Part shown: positions 1 to 53,873 of the stretch, piece by piece
Position numbering within the stretch: position 1 is the first letter of the stretch
Layout: each line of letters starts with the position of its first letter
Assembly (NCBI GenBank): GCA_024645085.1
Contig: JAHEGN010000003.1
Span: 1 to 53,876, forward strand
From: Rhodobiaceae bacterium
Lineage (GTDB): Bacteria > Pseudomonadota > Alphaproteobacteria > RS24
Direction: 5' to 3'
DNA: 53,876 bases
Translations under genes and position numbers: made by a program
The notes under the pieces: generated by a model
What the model was told of the DNA's origin: nothing
Database searches by the model: none
Seen by the model: the letters and a program-made list of their open reading frames with translations, nothing else

Positions 1-40
1 CCTTACGCTTTTGAAACGAAATATTTTGGCGGATTTGAGT

Positions 41-736
41 TTAATCGTTTTGAAACAGCCGTAGCCGTGCGCCCCGTGGGCTAGGTGTTTTATGCTCATC
101 CGGCAATTGGCAAATGCGGTTCATGCGGGTTGTGCTGCCATCTGCATATTCCCAAATCAGCTGCTCGCCCTCACGATAGCGGCGAACAGCAACCGGCCCC
201 CAGCCAAAGACATGAAAATTGAGCACTTTATCTTTCCATATCATGGCGGCTGACGTGCGCGGGCAATAGTCTTTATCGCCAATGGAAAAACTGACACCGC
301 CTTCCGTATCATTGGTGTTTAAGCCCGCCGTGCTATTGGGGCCGTAATCGTGAATAATGCCAGCAGCGGTAATGACGGTTCGGTTGCCACATTGCTCAAC
401 CCGCTCGACATAGCCGACTTTGCCTTCCACGCCAATCCATAGGCCGCGAATATCATCGGCCTCGGGCGGCAATGGCTCGCTGCAGGCTTGTAATATGGGG
501 TCTGGGAAATGCTTATAGCCACAGCCGGGCGTATTGCCCTTGGCAATGTCACTGGCCCGCTTACGGCTGCCATCTAAGACTGGCAAGCGGCAATAATCCA
601 GCCGACTGCCATCGCCTGCCAGCACAGCCGGATTGGTTGTCAAAGGCGGCCGCGATGAGAAAAAAGCCAGCCAGAATAAGATGAGTAAAAGGCTCACAAC
701 AAACCCAGATGAGAGGATGAGCGCGCGCTTTATCAT
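41..736 (-). CDS. Unrecognised membrane-anchored six-cysteine protein (left copy)
   Basis: The function is not recognised. The 231-residue product starts with a short basic stretch and one hydrophobic segment (about residues 5-26), which looks like an uncleaved signal anchor, so the remainder probably lies in the periplasm. That part carries six cysteines (DYC, PGCGY, QAC, EQC, DYCPRTS, RICQLP), enough for three disulfides, and many alternating Gly/Trp/Tyr segments that suggest a beta-rich fold. A close paralog, roughly 80% identical by eye and with all six cysteines conserved, lies at 48516-49199. In both places the gene is divergent from a GST-like gene across the same palindromic element. 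Its start overlaps the stop of a 38-codon ORF upstream (ATGA). Being real is well supported by the conserved paralog; any role, for example in envelope stress or solvent response, is guesswork. Confidence 0.85.
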   Translation of the reverse strand: MIKRALILSSGFVVSLLLILFWLAFFSSRPPLTTNPAVLAGDGSRLDYCRLPVLDGSRKRASDIAKGNTPGCGYKHFPDPILQACSEPLPPEADDIRGLWIGVEGKVGYVERVEQCGNRTVITAAGIIHDYGPNSTAGLNTNDTEGGVSFSIGDKDYCPRTSAAMIWKDKVLNFHVFGWGPVAVRRYREGEQLIWEYADGSTTRMNRICQLPDEHKTPSPRGARLRLFQND

Positions 737-849: not shown

Positions 850-889
850 GGGGATTTCTTTTTGTCGTCGGCCCTAACCCACATTATAA

Positions 890-910
890 ATTGACATTTA
901 TAGTGTCAAT
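890..910. promoter_or_regulatory. Palindromic operator within divergent promoters (left copy)
   Basis: The sequence TTGACATTTATAGTGTCAA is an inverted repeat with 6-bp arms TTGACA/TGTCAA and a 7-bp centre, extendable by one A/T pair on each side. Each arm also reads as a consensus -35 box. On the plus strand a 17-bp spacer leads to TATTCT at 914-919; on the minus strand TTGACA is followed after 15 bp by TATAAT (883-888). A factor bound here would block both divergent promoters. The same element recurs at 49288-49308, with about 35 flanking bases almost identical. The size and symmetry fit a TetR-family site, and a tetR gene is present at 51567-52178; the pairing is inference. Confidence 0.7.
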
Positions 911-964
911 AAATATTCTGACGACCGCTGGCGCAGCCAATATGACTGATGAAAAGGACCCGAC

Positions 965-1072
965 ATGATGAATAAATTGAAGCTCTATAGTTGGAGTGTT
1001 TCTCTTTATTCGGGCAAGGCGCACGCCAAAGGGCTTGCAAATATTCGCCAGTTGGTAACAATTGCACGATGA
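965..1072 (+). pseudogene. Truncated glutathione S-transferase remnant, now a leader ORF
   Basis: The ORF of 35 codons starts MMNKLKLYSWSVSLYSGKA, matching the beginning of the 381-residue GST-like protein at 49429 (KYKLFTWSVSLYSGKARAY). Similarity stops abruptly near position 1025, inside the thioredoxin-fold domain, and the remaining codons (HAKGLANIRQLVTIAR) are unrelated. The TGA overlaps the ATG of the amidase (ATGA), so the relic may still be translated and couple amidase translation to initiation at its own AAAGGACC site. It cannot form a GST domain. The upstream operator and promoter are shared with the intact copy, which points to duplication followed by deletion or recombination. 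Confidence 0.75.
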
Positions 1073-2451
1073 ACAATCTGGATTTAACAGCCCAAGTTGC
1101 GCTTTTGAAAACTGGCGAAATATCGCCGCGTGATCTGGTAGCGGCGAGTATCGCCAGAGCTGAAAAATTCGAGCCGAAACTCAATGCGCTGACCAGTCGG
1201 CGTTTCGAACAAGCCCTCGCGCAGGCCGAAACAGCCGCCACTGATAGCGTTTTTGCGGGCGCCCCATTTATGCATAAGGATTTGGTCGACGTGCCTGGCT
1301 TTATCCGCAGTGATGGCGCGCATCCGGCTTTGCATCAACAGCCCGAGACGGCGCCGCCACTGATTGCCGCTTTGCAAGGCGCTGGCCTCACCTTCATCAG
1401 CGCCACCAATACGCCAGAATATGGCTCTATGCCGGTGACCGCCAATCAGACATTTGGCACCACTTGCAATCCTTGGGATGTGTCAAAAACCCCAGCTGGC
1501 TCCAGCGGTGGCTCGGCAGCAGCGGTCATTGCTGGATATGTCGCCGCCGCCCATGCCACTGATGGCGCTGGCTCTATTCGCATGCCATCGTCTTTTTGCG
1601 GCACATTTGGGTTTAAGCCATCGCGTCAGCGTTTGCTGTCGGGCGAAGCCGATGGCTCGCACGCATTTTTGAAACATCACCACGCCATTACCCGTAGCGT
1701 GCGCGATAGCGCCTGGTTGTTTGATGTGACCCAGAACCGCGCCGCAACCGCCGCCTATCGGCCATTGGCGCCCATTGTTTCGCCGTCAAAACGCCGCCTG
1801 AAAATCGGCCTGATGTTCGACAATATTCAAAATGCCAGCGTCGCCGCACCAATCCGCCAGGTGATTGAACAGACCGCCAAACGCTGTGCCGATCTAGGCC
1901 ATGAGATATCTGCATTATCGCTTGGCACAACAGATGGTTCGGGTTTTTGGCAGCAAGTTGAAAATATGTTCCTGCTGCGTTTGCCGCTTCTGGTGGCGGC
2001 GATTGAACAGGCGACGGGGGCGCCCTTTGAAGATAATCAGCTTTTGTCGCCATTTGCGACTTCCATGGGGGTGGCCGCGCGCGCCTTGCCAGAAAACGCA
2101 GAAAATCTGGCTTTAGAGGCTTTTGAAGCCTATCGAGGCGGGTTGCTGGCTGGCTTTGAAACGGTTGATGTTATGTTGACGCCGGTCACCCCGATGATGC
2201 CTTTCGCGCATGATCAGTTGACGCCGCAGGGCAATTTGGCTGAACATGGGCAAACCATCGCTGATATGATGAGCTATATGGCGACGGCCAATGTTTATGG
2301 CCTGCCTGCCATGTCGATACCTTCGGGCATGGCCGATGGTCTACCGATTGGCGCTCATTTTATGGCCGCGGCGGGCCGCGATGATGTGCTGTTCGAACTG
2401 GCCTATGAGCTGGAGGCGGCGGCGCCCTGGCCAACAATGCCGATTACATAA
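1069..2451 (+). CDS. Amidase-signature family hydrolase
   Basis: This 460-residue enzyme of the amidase signature family hydrolyses a carboxamide to acid and ammonia through a Ser-cisSer-Lys triad. The triad is visible as Lys70 (PFMHKDLVDVPG), cis-Ser145 (PAGSSGGSAAAV) and nucleophile Ser169 (TDGAGSIRMPSS); the 24-residue gap between the serines is the family norm. The substrate cannot be read from sequence. It is not GatA-like in context, since gatB and gatC are absent. An in-frame start exists 26 codons upstream, but the ATG at 1069, overlapping the TGA of the GST relic, fits the start of the conserved domain better. It heads a three-gene unit with a MaoC-like hydratase and an acyl-CoA ligase, suggesting release of a carboxylic acid that is then CoA-activated. 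Confidence 0.9.
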   Translation: MNNLDLTAQVALLKTGEISPRDLVAASIARAEKFEPKLNALTSRRFEQALAQAETAATDSVFAGAPFMHKDLVDVPGFIRSDGAHPALHQQPETAPPLIAALQGAGLTFISATNTPEYGSMPVTANQTFGTTCNPWDVSKTPAGSSGGSAAAVIAGYVAAAHATDGAGSIRMPSSFCGTFGFKPSRQRLLSGEADGSHAFLKHHHAITRSVRDSAWLFDVTQNRAATAAYRPLAPIVSPSKRRLKIGLMFDNIQNASVAAPIRQVIEQTAKRCADLGHEISALSLGTTDGSGFWQQVENMFLLRLPLLVAAIEQATGAPFEDNQLLSPFATSMGVAARALPENAENLALEAFEAYRGGLLAGFETVDVMLTPVTPMMPFAHDQLTPQGNLAEHGQTIADMMSYMATANVYGLPAMSIPSGMADGLPIGAHFMAAAGRDDVLFELAYELEAAAPWPTMPIT

Positions 2452-2482: not shown

Positions 2483-2953
2483 ATGAGCGAAGCAGAGAAT
2501 TTTTCGGAGGCTTTAAAAGCCAAAACCGGAGACGAAATGGGTCTCACCGAATGGTATTGCTATGACCAAACGGCGGTGAGCACGCATGGGGCAAACTCGG
2601 GCGATGACGGGCCGATTCATAGTGACCCGGCCTATTGCAAGGCGCATACGCCTTTTGGCGGCACGATTGTGCAAGGTTCTTTATTGCTGTCGACTTTTAC
2701 GCGCATGGCTAAATCTCTGGTCTGGCCGCCTGGCGATATGGTTTTCCGCCTCAGCTATGGGTTTAATAAAGTGCGTATTATTCAGCCGGTAAAAACCGGG
2801 CAAAACTTCCGTGCCCGGTTTCACTTAAAAGACTCAGAACCAAAGGGCGAGGGCGCAGTTTTGGTGACCTTGCAGGCAAGCCTTGAGGCTGAAGGCACGC
2901 CGGGAGCGGTGCTGGTTGCTGAATGGCTGGCCTATCTGAAATTTGGCTCATAG
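2483..2953 (+). CDS. MaoC-like hot-dog dehydratase/enoyl-CoA hydratase
   Basis: A 156-residue single hot-dog-fold protein of the MaoC / (R)-specific enoyl-CoA hydratase group. The hydratase signature is present as GDDGPIHSDPAY, with the catalytic histidine at His46 and an upstream acidic residue at Asp41/42, followed by FGGTIVQGSLLLS. A strong AAGGGGGG ribosome binding site precedes the ATG. It sits 31 bases after the amidase and 11 bases before the acyl-CoA ligase, so it probably acts on the CoA ester made by the ligase, hydrating a 2-enoyl-CoA. A role as a hot-dog thioesterase is less likely given the PIH motif. Confidence 0.85.
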   Translation: MSEAENFSEALKAKTGDEMGLTEWYCYDQTAVSTHGANSGDDGPIHSDPAYCKAHTPFGGTIVQGSLLLSTFTRMAKSLVWPPGDMVFRLSYGFNKVRIIQPVKTGQNFRARFHLKDSEPKGEGAVLVTLQASLEAEGTPGAVLVAEWLAYLKFGS

Positions 2954-2964
2954 GAAATAATAAG

Positions 2965-4596
2965 ATGACACATGAAGCAAGTTTGAAACATATTGCGGCG
3001 GCACAAGCCCGCATTGACGCCCTGTCTATGAACGCTAATTTTGCCGAGCTTTTGGCCGAAAAAGCGGCCGCGCTGGGCGATAAAATTGCGGTCGATTTTT
3101 TTCAAACTGATGAAAAAATAAGTTATGCCGATTTGCACGAACAAACCGACAAGTTGGCCGACGCGCTAATGCGCATGGGCGTGCGCAAGGGCACGCATGT
3201 TGCCTTGGTAACACCGAACTCATCTGGCTTTGTGCTGAGCTGGTTTGCCATTGCCAAAATCGGCGCCGTTATGGTGCCGGTCAATCCGAGCTATACGGTG
3301 CGCGAGCTGATTTACGTACTGTCCGACAGCGACGCCAGCTTCTTAGTTTATGATCCGATGTTCGCCGCCGTCGTCGAAGCGGTGGCCGATGACAGCGTGA
3401 ACATAAGCCCCGAGCGGATGATTGTGCTGGGCGAGAAAGGCGACAAGCCGGGCCATGCTTTTGCCGAGGTGGTGGCCAGCGGGCGGTCGCCATTTGTGCC
3501 GCCAGTATCGGTGCAGGCCTCTGATTTATTGTCCATTCAATATACATCTGGCACCACCGGCAGCCCCAAGGGGTGTATGCAATCGCAGGATTATTGGCTG
3601 CGCTTGTCTCTGGTGGCGGCTAATTTTCAATTGCTGACGCTGGAAAATATTTTGGTCACTTTCCCGATGTTTTATCTCGACCCGCAACTGCAACTATTGA
3701 TGGCCTTGCGTGGCAATGGCACGGCATTTATCGCGGCGCAGCATTCCCTGTCAAAATTCCGCGATTGGATACGCGATTATCACATCCATGTGGCGACCAT
3801 TACACCGCCGGTTTTTCGGGCGATGCCGGAGACAGCAGAGGATGGCGATAATGATTTGCGCTATATATCAGCGTTCTATCACAAGGAAGACACTCATGCG
3901 GCTTTGGAAAAGCGGTTTAACTGTGTTGGGCGCGATGCTTTTGGCATGACCGAAGTCGGCGTCGCGCTTTATACGCCGGTGGCGGCGACTCATAAGGTTG
4001 GGGCGGGCACGGTTGGCCTAGCGGCGCCCTATCGTGAAATTATGATTGCTGATGAGCAGGGAAATGAGATGCCACGCGGCGAAGCGGGCGAATTATGCAT
4101 TGCCGGAGACGGCTTGTTTTGGGGCTATTACAAAAAGCCGGAAGCCAATCGCGAGAGCTTTCGCGGCAAATGGTTCCGCACCGGCGATGTCGCGACCATG
4201 GACGCGGAAGGCTATGTCTCAATTGTTGGGCGGCTGAAGGAGATGATTAAGCGCAGTGGCGAAAATATCGCAGCCATTGAAGTGCAAGAAGTGCTGGCCG
4301 AGCATGAGGCCATTGTCGAGGCGGCGGTTATTGGTGTGCCTGACCCGATGCGCAATGAAGAGGTGAAGGCCTATATTTTGCTGGCTGAGGGGCAAACCCC
4401 AGAGACTGTTCCGCCGCAGGCCATTCAGGCGCATTGTCTTGAGCGGCTGAGTAAATTCAAAGTGCCGCGCTACATCAGCTATGTCGACGACTTTCCACGC
4501 ACGCCATCGAATAAGATTGCCAAAAGCAAATTAACTGCCGGCGTCGATGATTTGAAAAAAGGCGCATTTGATTTGCTGGAAAACAAAGCGCACTAG
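2965..4596 (+). CDS. AMP-dependent acyl-CoA ligase, CaiC-like
   Basis: A 543-residue ANL-superfamily enzyme that activates a carboxylic acid to an acyl-adenylate and then to the CoA thioester. The ATP-binding loop YTSGTTGSPKG is at 193-203, FGMTEVG follows in the middle, then the WFRTGDVATMDAEGY hinge region and IKRSGENIAA. The catalytic Lys in PRTPSNK is near residue 517. The C-terminal third resembles crotonobetaine/carnitine-CoA ligase (CaiC), but the substrate is unproven. An alternative in-frame ATG at 2923 would overlap the MaoC gene; the ATG at 2965, 11 bases after the MaoC stop, fits operon spacing. It is the last gene of the amidase-MaoC-ligase unit. Confidence 0.9.
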   Translation: MTHEASLKHIAAAQARIDALSMNANFAELLAEKAAALGDKIAVDFFQTDEKISYADLHEQTDKLADALMRMGVRKGTHVALVTPNSSGFVLSWFAIAKIGAVMVPVNPSYTVRELIYVLSDSDASFLVYDPMFAAVVEAVADDSVNISPERMIVLGEKGDKPGHAFAEVVASGRSPFVPPVSVQASDLLSIQYTSGTTGSPKGCMQSQDYWLRLSLVAANFQLLTLENILVTFPMFYLDPQLQLLMALRGNGTAFIAAQHSLSKFRDWIRDYHIHVATITPPVFRAMPETAEDGDNDLRYISAFYHKEDTHAALEKRFNCVGRDAFGMTEVGVALYTPVAATHKVGAGTVGLAAPYREIMIADEQGNEMPRGEAGELCIAGDGLFWGYYKKPEANRESFRGKWFRTGDVATMDAEGYVSIVGRLKEMIKRSGENIAAIEVQEVLAEHEAIVEAAVIGVPDPMRNEEVKAYILLAEGQTPETVPPQAIQAHCLERLSKFKVPRYISYVDDFPRTPSNKIAKSKLTAGVDDLKKGAFDLLENKAH

Positions 4597-48515: not shown

Positions 48516-49199
48516 TTAAAACAGGCGGAGTCGGGCACCACGCGGACGCGGTTTTTTGTGCTCTTCCGGCAATTGACAGATGCGGTTCATACGGGTCGTG
48601 GTTCCGTCAGCATATTCCCAAATCAGCTGGTCGCCCTCGCGATAGCGGCGCACTGCTGCCGGTCCCCAACCAAATAGATGAAAATTGAGCACCTTATTTC
48701 CCCAAATCATCGAAGCTGATGTGCGCGGGCAATAGTCTTTGTCGCCAATGGAAAAAGTGACGCCGCCTTCCGTGTCATTTGTGTTCAGGCCTGCCGTTTT
48801 ATTGGGACCGTAATCGTGAATAATTCCGCTAGTGGTAATGACTGTTCGGCTGCCGCATTGTTCAACTCGTTCGACGTGACCAACTTTACCTGTCACGCCC
48901 ATCCAGAGACCACGAATATCATCTGCCTCGGGCGGTAATGGCTCGGTGCATTCTTGCAGTATGGGGGACGGGAAATGATCATAGCCGCACCCAGGCGTAT
49001 TGCCTTTGGCAATTTCGTCGGCTTGCTTGGCGCTGCCATCCAAGGGTGGCAGGCGACAATAATTGATTGCGCTGCCGTCTCCAGCCAGCACTGCTGCATC
49101 AGTGGTTAAAGGCGGTCGCGGCGAAAAAAACGCCAGCCAAAATAGGAAAAGGCAAAGGCTCAGCACAAAACCAAGCGAAATAATCAGAAAGCGCTTCAT
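48516..49199 (-). CDS. Unrecognised membrane-anchored six-cysteine protein (right copy)
   Basis: A 227-residue paralog of the protein at 41-736, about 80% identical by eye, with the same architecture: short basic start, a signal-anchor helix (about 4-25), then a cysteine-containing extracytoplasmic domain. All six cysteines are conserved; the longest invariant blocks are around EADDIRGLW, NTNDTEGGV, FSIGDKDYCPRTSA and RMNRICQLP. Divergence is concentrated in the N-terminal 75 residues and the basic C terminus. It is divergent from an intact GST-like gene over a palindromic operator and shares a neighbourhood with TetR, haloalkane dehalogenase and sulfatase genes. No function can be named. Confidence 0.87.
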   Translation of the reverse strand: MKRFLIISLGFVLSLCLFLFWLAFFSPRPPLTTDAAVLAGDGSAINYCRLPPLDGSAKQADEIAKGNTPGCGYDHFPSPILQECTEPLPPEADDIRGLWMGVTGKVGHVERVEQCGSRTVITTSGIIHDYGPNKTAGLNTNDTEGGVTFSIGDKDYCPRTSASMIWGNKVLNFHLFGWGPAAVRRYREGDQLIWEYADGTTTRMNRICQLPEEHKKPRPRGARLRLF

Positions 49200-49287
49200 C
49201 TCGCTAGGCTTTTATAAAAACACAATTGAGGTTGTGATAGAGCATGATGGTTTCCTTTTCTGGCATCACGTTGCGTTTACAATATAA

Positions 49288-49308
49288 ATTGACATTTATA
49301 GTGTCAAT
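49288..49308. promoter_or_regulatory. Palindromic operator within divergent promoters (right copy)
   Basis: The same TTGACATTTATAGTGTCAA palindrome as at 890-910, with flanks TATAAA and TAAATA also matching. Its plus-strand TTGACA arm plus a 17-bp spacer leads to TAATCT at 49312-49317; the minus-strand arm is followed after 15 bases by TATATT. It lies about 80 bases upstream of the minus gene and 120 upstream of the GST start. Confidence 0.7.
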
Positions 49309-49428
49309 AAATAATCTGCTGTCTTGCGAGGAGATGAAACCGTAACGATTTCGCTTTGCATTTGGGCCGTTTGCCGTTTTCTTAATGGCGGCGTTTGGGC
49401 AAATCGTTTATCTGGCTGAGGAGATATC

Positions 49429-50574
49429 ATGGTCGACAAATATAAACTCTTCACATGGAGCGTATCGCTTTATTCAGGCAAGGCGCGCGCTTATCTCATT
49501 AAGCAGCATATTGATTTTGAAGATATCTCGCCCGCTGACCCGCATTATGAGGCGCACATTCGCCCCGCCATCGGGCGGTGGATTATTCCCGTCATGCAAA
49601 CGCCAGAGGGCGAAATTGTGCAAGATGGCACCGATATTATCGATTGGTTCGAAAGCCGTGGAATGGCCCGTTTGCCGGCTTATCCACAAACGCCCAAGCA
49701 TCTCATTGCTTCACTGATTATGGAAATGTTTGGCGGCGAGGGCATGCTTCGCCCCGCTATGCACTATCGGTGGAATTTTGACGCTGATAATCTTGACTTT
49801 ATCTTGCAGCAATTTGGTCTGTTTGCCTTACCGCAAGTGCCGCCCGCTGAACGCCGCGACATGGCCTTACACGCCGCCGGACGCATGCGCAAAGCGGCGG
49901 TGATGTTCGGTGTTACGCCGGAAACTGCACCGCATATTGAGGCAGCCTATGAAGAGATGATGGCCGAATTTGACGCTCATTTTGCTACCCACCCCTATCT
50001 TTTAGGCGGCGCCCCGACGATTGGTGACTATGGTTTGTTCGCCTCACTTTATGCTCATTTGGGGCGCGATCCCCATCCCCTCAGAATGATGCAGGAAAAA
50101 GCGCAAATGCTCTTCCGCTGGACCGAGCGCATGCGAAACCCAAGCGCCGATATGGTTGAGTTTCTCAACCAAGCTGAAACCCTGCTGGCGGCCGATGCCA
50201 TCCCCGATACGCTGAAAATATTGTTGCGCCGCGTAGCCTCCGACTATTTGCCCGAGATCCAAGCGATGGTTGCCATGAGCAATGAGTGGTTGGTGGCCAA
50301 TAGGCCGGCTGAAAACGAAGTCGTCGGCGGCCAAAGTCTGGGGCGCGGCCTTGGCATGTGCAGCTTTGACTGGCGCGGTCAAAAGCTGGAAGTCATGGTC
50401 ATGCCCTATCGTACTTTTATGCTGCAACGCATTCAAGACGCCTATGACGGGCTTGACGCAGAAAGTCAAGAAGCCGTCGACACATTATTGGCGCAAACCG
50501 GTCTGTCGGCCATTCTCACAACCCGCTCAATGCGGCGCGTGGAACGCAGAAACCATCGTGAGGTCTGGGCCTAG
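49429..50574 (+). CDS. Glutathione S-transferase-like protein with long C-terminal extension
   Basis: A 381-residue protein. Residues about 1-80 form a GST thioredoxin-fold domain (LFTWSVSLYSGKARAYLIKQ; cis-proline in RWIIPVMQT; DGTDIIDWFE for glutathione contact), and about 90-240 the helical domain with GGAPTIGDYGLFASLYAHLGRD. The last 130 residues go beyond a normal GST (200-230 residues) and have no motif I recognise. The usual catalytic Ser/Cys/Tyr is not obvious: Ser10/Ser13 in SWSVS-like SVSLYS is a candidate. CTGAGGAGATATC precedes the ATG. A truncated copy of its 5' end is at 965. Possibly acts on halogenated or sulfated compounds with its neighbours. Confidence 0.85.
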   Translation: MVDKYKLFTWSVSLYSGKARAYLIKQHIDFEDISPADPHYEAHIRPAIGRWIIPVMQTPEGEIVQDGTDIIDWFESRGMARLPAYPQTPKHLIASLIMEMFGGEGMLRPAMHYRWNFDADNLDFILQQFGLFALPQVPPAERRDMALHAAGRMRKAAVMFGVTPETAPHIEAAYEEMMAEFDAHFATHPYLLGGAPTIGDYGLFASLYAHLGRDPHPLRMMQEKAQMLFRWTERMRNPSADMVEFLNQAETLLAADAIPDTLKILLRRVASDYLPEIQAMVAMSNEWLVANRPAENEVVGGQSLGRGLGMCSFDWRGQKLEVMVMPYRTFMLQRIQDAYDGLDAESQEAVDTLLAQTGLSAILTTRSMRRVERRNHREVWA

Positions 50575-50579
50575 ACCGC

Positions 50580-51518
50580 CTATCCGATTTCGCCCAAGAA
50601 AGCCAATAGCGCGGCGGCGTATTCTTGGTGCATGTCCTCGACAAGAAAATGGCTACCACCGGACAAAATAACCGGCTCGCGCTGCGCCGCGGTGGGAATA
50701 AATGGGCGCACGCTCTGATGGCCATTGGGGGCAACAATATCCTTATCGGAATAAAGGCATAGGAATGGTTTATCGAAAGACGCCAGCTTTTGCCGAGCAT
50801 AAAAATTATCGACCAGCATGGGATTGTCGTAACGTGTCGGCAACATTTGGGTGAATTGTCGATTGCCGGTCAGATAATGAAAATTCGGATATGGCGCGGC
50901 ATATCCGGCGACGACTTGTTTTGATAATTTTGTTGTGCAAATAGCCGCGAGCGTTTTCCAGTGTCGCCAAAACAGGTTTAAGCGAACATAAAGTTGAAAC
51001 TTACGCAAGAGTCCTGAACCCGGCATTGCCATATTGTCGATTTTTTGCTGCGGGTCGCGCACTGGCAGTCCGGTGTTGGAAAAGGTGATGCTGGCAATCC
51101 GGTTTTGATGATTGGCGGCTACACGTAGGCCGATTATGCCGCCCCAATCATGCAGCACGAAATGCGCGTCGTGCAGGTTGAGTTTATCAAACAGCGCTTC
51201 GCGCACCCATGCTTCGTGCCGCGCAATTGTGTAATCGCGCATGCGGGTCGGTTTATCCGAGCGCCCCATGCCAATCAGATCAATGGCAATGGCGCGATAG
51301 CCGGCATCCCCCAAAGCGCGAACGACTTTGCGCCACATAAATGACCAAGTCGGATTGCCGTGGATCATCACCACCGGCTGACCATCGGTCGGCCCGTATT
51401 CGATATAATGCATATCTAAATTGCCGCCTTCTTGGTCATCAAGCGTCACAAAATGCGGCGCGAAATCAAAATCGGGCAAATGATCGAAACAGTGGTCGGG
51501 GGTTTTGCGTATTCTCAT
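50580..51518 (-). CDS. Haloalkane dehalogenase, subfamily I-like
   Basis: A 312-residue alpha/beta hydrolase. The predicted nucleophile is Asp124 with halide-binding Trp125 (LHDWGGIIG), the acid Asp260 (YSDKD) and the base His290 (GGSHFLVED). The oxyanion segment HGNPTWSFMWR is at 53-63. These positions closely match those of the classic DhlA enzyme (Asp124, Trp125, Asp260, His289), so the HLD-I subfamily is likely. It would hydrolyse a C-halogen bond to an alcohol and halide. It converges on the GST gene and follows tetR on the same strand by 48 bases. Epoxide hydrolase is the main alternative but the paired Tyr residues of that class are not evident. Confidence 0.85.
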   Translation of the reverse strand: MRIRKTPDHCFDHLPDFDFAPHFVTLDDQEGGNLDMHYIEYGPTDGQPVVMIHGNPTWSFMWRKVVRALGDAGYRAIAIDLIGMGRSDKPTRMRDYTIARHEAWVREALFDKLNLHDAHFVLHDWGGIIGLRVAANHQNRIASITFSNTGLPVRDPQQKIDNMAMPGSGLLRKFQLYVRLNLFWRHWKTLAAICTTKLSKQVVAGYAAPYPNFHYLTGNRQFTQMLPTRYDNPMLVDNFYARQKLASFDKPFLCLYSDKDIVAPNGHQSVRPFIPTAAQREPVILSGGSHFLVEDMHQEYAAALLAFLGEIG

Positions 51519-51566: not shown

Positions 51567-52178
51567 TCAAGCCGAGCCCACTTTGATGCCATGGCCCGCG
51601 AAAAACCCAATTATGAGCACGGTTAAAATATCCTTGCTTTCACGCACACCCAATTTTTGGTGGTGACGCAAGCGGTGCCACATGTCGAAAGAAGTCAGGG
51701 CATCCAACCCCTCCATGATCATGGGTGGGTGCTGCTCAAGTTCAGGAAACCAGCTTAATGTGAGCTCGCGTAATTTACTTTGGTCGCGCGCATAGCTTTG
51801 GCGCAATGTGGGCGAACGCCATAATTGTGCCTGTGTCGATAGGATAATATTGTTCAAATGCTCATAGGCTACCGCCTGGCTATTGAGAAATGTTTCGATA
51901 CGTTGGGTGATATCGCCATCGCCTTCCCCACGCGGGAATAGGGACATAAAATTGTCACGCGCGTAGAAATCGGCCGCAGAAAACAACGCTTCCATGTCGT
52001 CGAAATGGCGGAAAAAAGAGCGGAGACCAACCCCAGCCTTATCGGCAATTTGTTTGGCTGTTGGAACCAATAGGCCTTGGTCGATGAGTTCTAGCGAGGC
52101 CTTAATGAGCGCCTCGCGCGACCGAGCGCTTCTTTGGCGGCGACCGTCAACGACGATTAGATTGGGATTTTCCCTCAT
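51567..52178 (-). CDS. TetR/AcrR-family transcriptional regulator
   Basis: A 203-residue regulator. The N-terminal helix-turn-helix spans about 22-68: REALIKASLELIDQ, then TAKQIADKAGVGLRSFFRHFDD, the TetR hallmark. The C-terminal ligand domain (about 70-200) is unlike any family I can name. AGAGAGGAATTC precedes the ATG. It lies 15 bases after the sulfatase gene and before the dehalogenase, so the three are probably one transcript. It is the best candidate to bind the palindrome at 49288-49308 and its copy at 890-910; the window shows no other free TetR-type regulator. Confidence 0.92.
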   Translation of the reverse strand: MRENPNLIVVDGRRQRSARSREALIKASLELIDQGLLVPTAKQIADKAGVGLRSFFRHFDDMEALFSAADFYARDNFMSLFPRGEGDGDITQRIETFLNSQAVAYEHLNNIILSTQAQLWRSPTLRQSYARDQSKLRELTLSWFPELEQHPPMIMEGLDALTSFDMWHRLRHHQKLGVRESKDILTVLIIGFFAGHGIKVGSA

Positions 52179-52193
52179 GAATTCCTCTCTTTG

Positions 52194-53873
52194 CTAGTTA
52201 GGCCAATAAATATAATCATCGTCCAAACTCAGTTTGTCGGCCGGCGTCTTGTCGAGCCAAATGGGTATGGAGACGCGCGATGGCCACATCGGCTCAGCTT
52301 GCTGCTCATTGTGCGTGTCCAGCAAGGCCATTAATTCATCGACTTTTTCAGGGTTTTGCGCGCTGACTTCGTTTTGCTCAAGCGGGTCTTTGACCATATT
52401 GAACAGGCGAATCTTTTGCGGGTCCATACTGCGCTGTAATTTCCAGCCGCCCGACATAATTGCTTGGTAGTGGCCCCCGCGCCAAATTAATGTTTGGTGT
52501 GGAAGGCCCGCCTTGCGACCAGTGAGATAGGGCAATAGGTTTACCCCATCCATCACTTCGGCTTGCGGTGTCAGCCCAGCTGCGTCAAGCGCTGTCGGCA
52601 TGATGTCGAGATGCGACACAGCATGCGGATAGGTTCGGCCGCCGCTTAGCTTTTGCGGCCAGCGCATGACATAGGGGATATGCGTGCCGCCTTCGAAGAA
52701 GCTCAACTTCCAGCCGCGATAAGGCTTATTGATGTCGGGCATGCCGATATAATTGGCGCCGCCATTATCGCTGGTGAAAATGACCAGCGTATTGTCATCC
52801 AGCCCATTATCTTTGAGCGCCTGCATAAGCTTGCCGACCGAACGATCGACGGCACGAATCATGGCGGCATAAACGCGGGTGCGGTGATTGGGGAAATTAT
52901 CACCGACGGCTTCAAAATCTTTTCTGGAGGCTTGTAAGGGCGTATGAATGCCCCAATGCGCTAGATAAAGAAAGAAAGGCCGGTTCTTATTGGCGCCAAT
53001 GGCCTTTACCGCTTCGTCCGTATAATAGTCGGTCAAATAGCCTTTCGGACGAAAATTATCGCTTCGATTGAAGCTCGCTGAATAATCCAACACTTCCCAT
53101 TGCACACTGTCGAGAATGGCGAATTCATTGCGCGCATTGACCACCTGTGGGTGGTCAATCGGCAGGTACAAACCGTTTGCCATCAGCAGGCTTTCATCGA
53201 ACCCCTGATCCAGCGGGTGCAAGCCCAAATTGCGGCCCAAATGCCATTTGCCGATGTGCAGATTGTGGTACCCCGCGCGCTTTAACTCCTCGGCCAAGGT
53301 AATTTCGCTGCTCGGCATGCCTTTCGCTGCATATGGCACATTGTGATTGGCATGCGGGTCATCAGCATGCACTTCATGAAATTTGAAGGTGCGCGGCGCT
53401 GTGTCGGCTTTGCTTAACTGCTGCAGAATCGGGGTGAACGCATCGGGGGCAGGGGTGAATTCAAAGCCGAAGCGGGTCGCGTAACGACCAGTCAGCAACA
53501 TGGCGCGCGAGGGAGAACAAACCGCGCTACCGGCATAGCCATTGGCAAAACGCACGCCCTGAGCTCCCAATAGGTCAATGTGTGGTGTCTCGATCAGGCC
53601 GCCGCCATACAGGCTCACATCGTTAAAGCCCATATCATCGGTCAGGATGACGATAATATTGGGCGGGCGTTTTTCAGCCTTGTCCCAGGTGCCGGTTTGC
53701 CAGCTAATGGCGCGGTGCGGCGCCACAGGAGAGTTGATTTTCTGGATAAAGCCGATGGTCTTGATGATGAGCGTGGTGCGGTTAGCAAAGCCAACGCCAG
53801 CGACGCCGATAAATATAAGGGCAGCAATTAAAAAGACCCTCTTACGGCGGCTGAGTTGCGTCCAAAAAGTCAT
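52194..53873 (-). CDS. Type I sulfatase, membrane-anchored
   Basis: A 559-residue arylsulfatase-like enzyme. A basic start and one hydrophobic helix (about 12-30) suggest inner-membrane anchoring with a periplasmic catalytic domain. Metal-binding Asp79-Asp80 lie in VILTDDMGFNDVSLYG. The formylglycine motif is Cys119-Ser-Pro-Ser-Arg (VCSPSRAMLLTGR), which needs a formylglycine-generating enzyme not present here. HIGKWHLG and FTSDNGGANYIG are further family motifs. It would release sulfate from a sulfate ester, perhaps an alkyl or aryl sulfate or an algal polysaccharide. The ATG is three bases from the window edge, so the promoter and ribosome site are outside; an earlier in-frame start cannot be excluded. 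Confidence 0.9.
   Translation of the reverse strand: MTFWTQLSRRKRVFLIAALIFIGVAGVGFANRTTLIIKTIGFIQKINSPVAPHRAISWQTGTWDKAEKRPPNIIVILTDDMGFNDVSLYGGGLIETPHIDLLGAQGVRFANGYAGSAVCSPSRAMLLTGRYATRFGFEFTPAPDAFTPILQQLSKADTAPRTFKFHEVHADDPHANHNVPYAAKGMPSSEITLAEELKRAGYHNLHIGKWHLGRNLGLHPLDQGFDESLLMANGLYLPIDHPQVVNARNEFAILDSVQWEVLDYSASFNRSDNFRPKGYLTDYYTDEAVKAIGANKNRPFFLYLAHWGIHTPLQASRKDFEAVGDNFPNHRTRVYAAMIRAVDRSVGKLMQALKDNGLDDNTLVIFTSDNGGANYIGMPDINKPYRGWKLSFFEGGTHIPYVMRWPQKLSGGRTYPHAVSHLDIMPTALDAAGLTPQAEVMDGVNLLPYLTGRKAGLPHQTLIWRGGHYQAIMSGGWKLQRSMDPQKIRLFNMVKDPLEQNEVSAQNPEKVDELMALLDTHNEQQAEPMWPSRVSIPIWLDKTPADKLSLDDDYIYWPN

Follow-up and report, generated by a model that had tools for sequence, protein, structure and literature searches.

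The stretch of DNA analysed here (the window) is a 53,876-nucleotide contig from a Rhodobiaceae bacterium. At each of its ends a gene for a 227- to 231-aa membrane-anchored protein faces leftward away from an intergenic palindrome, with genes for metabolic enzymes on the other side. The genes and principal features at the two ends are as follows.

41-736, minus strand: left paralogue of the 227–231-aa membrane-anchored protein, a predicted leftward target (sequence comparison, tree)
885-920: left 36-bp conserved block containing the putative operator and promoters, one mismatch against 49283-49318
891-909, no strand: left 19-bp palindrome, TTGACA and TGTCAA separated by TTTATAG, predicted TetR-family operator (match search and phylogenetic footprint)
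965-1072, plus strand: 35-codon open reading frame whose stop overlaps the amidase start (ATGA); first 21 codons GST-derived
1020-1032, plus strand: approximate junction between the duplicated promoter module and native amidase upstream DNA (alignments with loci L151 and L152)
1069-2451, plus strand: amidase, first gene of the operon that appears to have captured the promoter (Pfam Amidase; orthologues in G026 and G006, 77%)
2483-2953, plus strand: MaoC-like protein of the amidase operon (domain match, synteny)
2923-4596, plus strand: AMP-dependent ligase of the amidase operon (synteny)
48516-49199, minus strand: right paralogue, 227-aa protein, a predicted leftward target (homologue search, tree)
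49283-49318: right 36-bp conserved block containing the putative operator and promoters, one mismatch against 885-920
49289-49307: right 19-bp palindrome, predicted TetR-family operator (same site and place in G002)
49429-50574, plus strand: GST-like protein, 381 aa, a predicted rightward target (Pfam GST_N/GST_C; adjoins the site in relatives)
50580-51518, minus strand: protein of the haloalkane dehalogenase family, at the end of the sulfatase-tetR run (NCBIfam NF002043 above cut-off)
51567-52178, minus strand: TetR-family regulator, the putative cognate repressor (Pfam TetR_N, structure model, fold search)
52194-53873, minus strand: sulfatase, first gene of the sulfatase-tetR-dehalogenase run (Pfam, synteny)

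The 19-mer TTGACATTTATAGTGTCAA is present in exact form at both palindrome positions, and the near-identical element that the initial annotation had reported at the two window ends was confirmed, with 1 of 36 positions differing between the blocks. The non-coding DNA beside them had been called diverged, and ungapped identity over the neighbouring 40 bp is indeed 38% and 18%. A scan of the genome (1.705 Mb) at up to three mismatches dispelled the concern that the palindrome might have many random matches: it recovered the two window copies and no third copy of TTGACATTTATAGTGTCAA, the chance expectation at this threshold being 0.02 per window. A first-order model predicts ~6e-6 exact copies of the 19-mer for the whole genome; for the pattern TTGACAN7TGTCAA it predicts 0.10 matches, against 3 observed in this genome.

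Both arms of the palindrome coincide with promoter elements, which are arranged as follows.

891-896, plus strand: -35 box TTGACA of the rightward promoter, identical with half-site 1 (sequence, conservation)
914-919, plus strand: -10 box TATTCT of the rightward promoter, 17-bp spacer (positions 24, 25 and 29 conserved)
904-909, minus strand: -35 box TTGACA of the leftward promoter, identical with half-site 2 (sequence, conservation)
881-886, minus strand: -10 box TAATGT of the leftward promoter, 17-bp spacer (positions -4, -5 and -9 conserved)
49312-49317, plus strand: rightward -10 box TAATCT of the right copy
49279-49284, minus strand: leftward -10 box TATTGT of the right copy

Information content, computed on 14 divergent or cluster sites, was high in both hexamers and in the adjacent A/T triplets, and peaked again on the right (positions 24, 25 and 29) and on the left (-4, -5 and -9). 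These peaks fall where a -10 hexamer placed 17 bp from TTGACA on each strand has its T, its A and its last T. Conservation of -10-like positions at this distance from each TTGACA indicates that the operator arms are also two -35 boxes, as had been proposed from the sequence of the window. The spacer of each promoter holds the -35 box of the other, with the -10 boxes facing outward, and judging from this layout two polymerases could hardly occupy the interleaved promoters simultaneously. Both directions have good -35 and -10 boxes, and the sites might be no more than two strong sigma-70 promoters placed back to back, with shared TTGACA boxes that happen to form a palindrome and no repressor involved. 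We regard this as very improbable, because both arms and the exact spacing of 19 bp persist even at sites with a single apparent target downstream (C28 and C31, described below), the A/T flank beside the arms is conserved outside the hexamers, and the site tracks a tetR gene. Symmetric DNA that directs divergent transcription, with one polymerase at a time, has been described by Warman, Grainger and colleagues for bidirectional promoters that share a -10 element and have starts ~18 bp apart (PMC12825309). The sites in the window resemble these in their symmetry and predicted divergent transcription, but here it is the -35 boxes that interleave, the -10 boxes lie outward with 27 bp between their inner ends, and no -10 element is shared between the two directions.

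The protein encoded at 51567-52178 carries an N-terminal TetR_N helix-turn-helix domain (PF00440, 29.6 bits against a cut-off of 24). Its structure model is all-helical (10 helices, pLDDT 86), with Foldseek matches that are TetR structures (TM up to ~0.7), and the helix-turn-helix region is strongly conserved among TetR homologues that are 44–86% identical overall. The best sequence match among solved structures is DesT, a distant one (E 5e-8), and the NCBIfam match to FabR scores 19.5 bits, far below the cut-off of 151, which places the protein outside FabR. Unlike the targets of these TetR-family fatty-acid regulators, those predicted here are not desaturase genes.

We compared the locus with other genomes, mostly metagenome assemblies. 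Homologues of TetR, the 227-aa protein, GST, sulfatase and dehalogenase co-occur across the family, and the site, which had been singled out beforehand as something to look for near homologous genes in relatives, was present in 12 family genomes (G000, G002, G005, G009, G010, G013, G015, G019, G021, G022, G023 and G026). In these clusters TTGACAN7TGTCAA is intergenic and always 19 bp long, lying between or upstream of sulfatase, TetR, GST and haloalkane dehalogenase genes; G001 has a one-mismatch form in which one arm reads TTGGCA. Across 28 family genomes there were 31 exact matches, as against 1 match of the reversed control pattern, and 16 of the 31 fall within the sulfatase/TetR/GST/dehalogenase cluster. 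Matches to the motif are rare and hardly occur outside the promoters of cluster genes. Among the out-of-cluster sites, L065 (G001) is upstream of a homologue of the dehalogenase (61% identical to the one in the window), L076 and L082 (G022 and G023) are upstream of sulfatase homologues, and five, in genus g3, are upstream of an mraZ-like gene, show no connection to the cluster and may be unrelated to it. Out-of-cluster sites such as those of g3 suggest that similar sites may serve other factors or arise by chance in promoters. Outside the family, Spongiibacter and Halieaceae (Gammaproteobacteria) have imperfect sites close to homologues of TetR or GST; a perfect site does not accompany all TetR homologues outside the family, which counts against a TetR-family operator as the best explanation.

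Two further observations concern sites of this general kind. TTGACAN7TGTCAA lies directly upstream of DUF3604 genes in G019 (L075) and G016 (L080), which are possible further targets. A different conserved palindrome, TTGACATAAAAGCTGTCAA, is found at L067-L071 in five genomes of genus g3, and in G008, the genome examined in full, it overlaps the start of the mraZ-like gene.

In relatives the site is closely associated with tetR itself. In G013, G021 and G026 it stands immediately before tetR, which is divergent from the GST side; in G001 it lies between GST and a tetR plus 227-aa gene pair, again immediately before tetR; in G005, G009, G015, G022 and G023 it precedes a sulfatase-tetR run; and in G002 it is upstream of sulfatase-tetR-dehalogenase, a gene order common to G002 and the window. 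Only 3 bp of the window contig remain beyond the sulfatase start, and the corresponding promoter, which carries the site in G002, falls outside the sequence; a search with the last 121 bases for a contig continuing past the right end found none. Since relatives carry sites before tetR or before the operon that contains it, autoregulation of the repressor would be most likely. As in known TetR-operator pairs, the palindrome overlaps promoters of the genes presumed to be regulated, and it is linked to, and conserved together with, a regulator gene. We infer that the 51567-52178 protein binds the palindrome. A real operator bound by another TetR-family or dimeric regulator, encoded elsewhere in the genome, appears unlikely to us: TTGACA..TGTCAA is a generic arrangement and similar sites occur away from the cluster, as such a binder would predict, but most site-bearing genomes carry tetR in the cluster, with the site before tetR or its operon. 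A point against assignment to the local TetR is that the G001 TetR is only ~30% identical despite a similar site.

In the genome of the window, intergenic sites with at most one mismatch comprise the two in the window, C28:6086 and C31:43109. By sequence, the right site would control the 227-aa protein gene and GST, and the left site the 227-aa paralogue and the amidase-MaoC-AMP-ligase operon. The C28 site is upstream of a DUF1330-GST operon, a further predicted target, and is kept in G002 and G001, that is, in all three members of the genus. The metallo-beta-lactamase-fold gene downstream of the C31 site is probably also a target, with support from G036, a genome of another family, in which a site occurs at the same position by the homologous gene, next to malate dehydrogenase. 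The sulfatase-tetR-dehalogenase run, whose site would lie off the contig, is probably controlled as well, and when the sulfatase promoter site known from G002 is counted, the predicted regulon has about five sites. The small regulon with at least two divergent promoters envisaged in the initial annotation was upheld in that multiple sites exist, but it extends beyond the two sites of the window. At L112:4712 and L091:1501, from two separate alphaproteobacterial families, similar palindromes are flanked by malate dehydrogenase and a metallo-beta-lactamase-fold gene. Relaxed matches on C1, C4, C15, C18, C19, C20, C21, C24, C38 and C46 are inside open reading frames and were set aside as probably due to chance.

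The two sites are related by descent. The proteins encoded at 41-736 and 48516-49199 are 83% identical, their genes matching along the entire length, and alignment of the window ends showed that 965-1027 matches codons 1–21 of the GST gene at 49429; both copies thus sit in duplicated modules composed of a 227-aa paralogue, the promoter and the first 21 codons of GST. Between the linked paralogues 49 of 99 four-fold degenerate sites have changed, and at this rate the probability of at most one difference in 36 bp is 8e-10. The protein tree groups the right copy with the G002 sequence and places the left copy outside this pair (support 90/86). The module duplication is therefore old, and it appears to predate the split from a sister species. 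An old duplication with 1 difference in 36 positions points to purifying selection on the block, and, the modules being paralogous and their flanks diverged, the similarity of the blocks reflects common descent together with strong constraint on 36 bp. The earlier argument for selection rather than recent duplication alone therefore holds as regards selection, but the two contexts are not unrelated, being paralogous by segmental duplication. Paralogous flanks on both sides are what recent duplication or gene conversion would leave; as the only cause of the identity of the two copies, however, we give these processes practically no credence. The four-fold divergence and the gene tree rule out recent duplication as the sole cause, the non-coding flanks can barely be aligned, and gene conversion would need to cover exactly 36 bp.

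The 227–231-aa membrane-anchored protein family had no Pfam or NCBIfam match, and the structure model of the 227-aa protein is poor, with a pLDDT of 64. The family is well conserved and is linked to TetR across the bacterial family and in Spongiibacter. An apparent third copy of the gene on contig C47 of the same genome proved to be the left copy continued: window positions 1–121 are identical to the last 121 bases of C47, which makes these contigs adjacent in the assembly graph.

At the left end, the module adjoins an operon of different origin. In the alignments with L151 and L152, leader DNA of the amidase-operon orthologues in G026 and G006 matches the window only from ~1020-1032 on, beginning exactly where the GST similarity stops, and the remainder of the 35-codon open reading frame aligns with this native amidase leader; a C-terminal remnant of GST was rejected as its source, as it has no match in the GST gene. 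Compared with the GST copy, this reading frame differs mostly at third codon positions (2, 4, 11). Orthologues of the amidase-MaoC-AMP-ligase operon in G026 and G006 are 77–86% identical, and upstream of them neither the palindrome nor the 227-aa gene was found, a different divergent gene being present there; G002 and G001 have distant amidase paralogues only. The simplest account of these alignments is that the segment comprising the 227-aa gene, the promoter and the 5' end of GST was duplicated, giving rise to the left site, and that this copy was captured upstream of the amidase operon, its GST-side promoter becoming the operon promoter and reading into the amidase. The comparison suggests a clear promoter-capture event, in which either the module or the operon may have been the part that moved. 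The stop codon of the 35-codon reading frame overlaps the amidase start, so translational coupling would be possible. Whether the 227-aa gene and its symmetric promoter/operator form a portable module, which brought the amidase operon under TetR with the GST-derived leader coupling translation, we consider evenly balanced; if it is true, the operon was unregulated or differently regulated before the module arrived.

Taken as a whole, the evidence makes it highly probable that the palindromes are TetR-family operators, likely of the 51567-52178 protein, set in interleaved divergent promoters, the left site having arisen by segmental duplication. A repressor dimer, or a pair of dimers, on the palindrome would hide both -35 boxes and shut both promoters, and a small ligand would free it from the DNA. 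Repression by the bound protein is suggested by analogy with TetR-family proteins that have promoter-overlapping palindromes (PMC6790063). The reading of the sites as a TetR operator within divergent promoters came through every check that sequence permits, namely rarity, phylogenetic footprint, tetR proximity, -10 positions and selection. The consensus of RutR, TTGACCA-N2-TGGTCAA, has a similar outer half-site to the palindrome described here and a different spacing. RutR is a multi-target TetR-family regulator that likewise has several target operons at separate loci, but the regulated genes are different (PMC6790063). Local TetR-family repressors with divergent targets, such as AcrR with acrAB, are Type I in the scheme of Ahn et al. 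as outlined in PMC6790063. The system predicted here shares with them a helix-turn-helix repressor of the TetR family, a palindrome overlapping promoters, and a regulator gene beside its targets and, in some relatives, divergent from one of them. It differs in that the operator half-sites coincide with both -35 boxes, several scattered targets exist besides the local ones, and the targets are sulfatase, GST, dehalogenase and amidase genes instead of an efflux pump.

Literature searches on this operator, and on control of a dehalogenase/sulfatase/GST cluster by a TetR, found nothing relevant; the regulation is of a known kind, with a regulator, operator and regulon that are apparently undescribed. 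The sulfatase, dehalogenase, GST, amidase and acyl-ligase enzymes encoded suggest that the cluster may serve to take up and degrade, or to detoxify, a sulfated or halogenated organic compound. For a cluster that is widespread in a marine alphaproteobacterial family, the operator sequence, the probable regulator and the predicted target genes are now named, so that a simple reporter could be used to look for the inducer. The locus also offers a datable case of regulon growth by apparent promoter capture, with an old duplication, a precise junction and relatives in which the operon is uncaptured.
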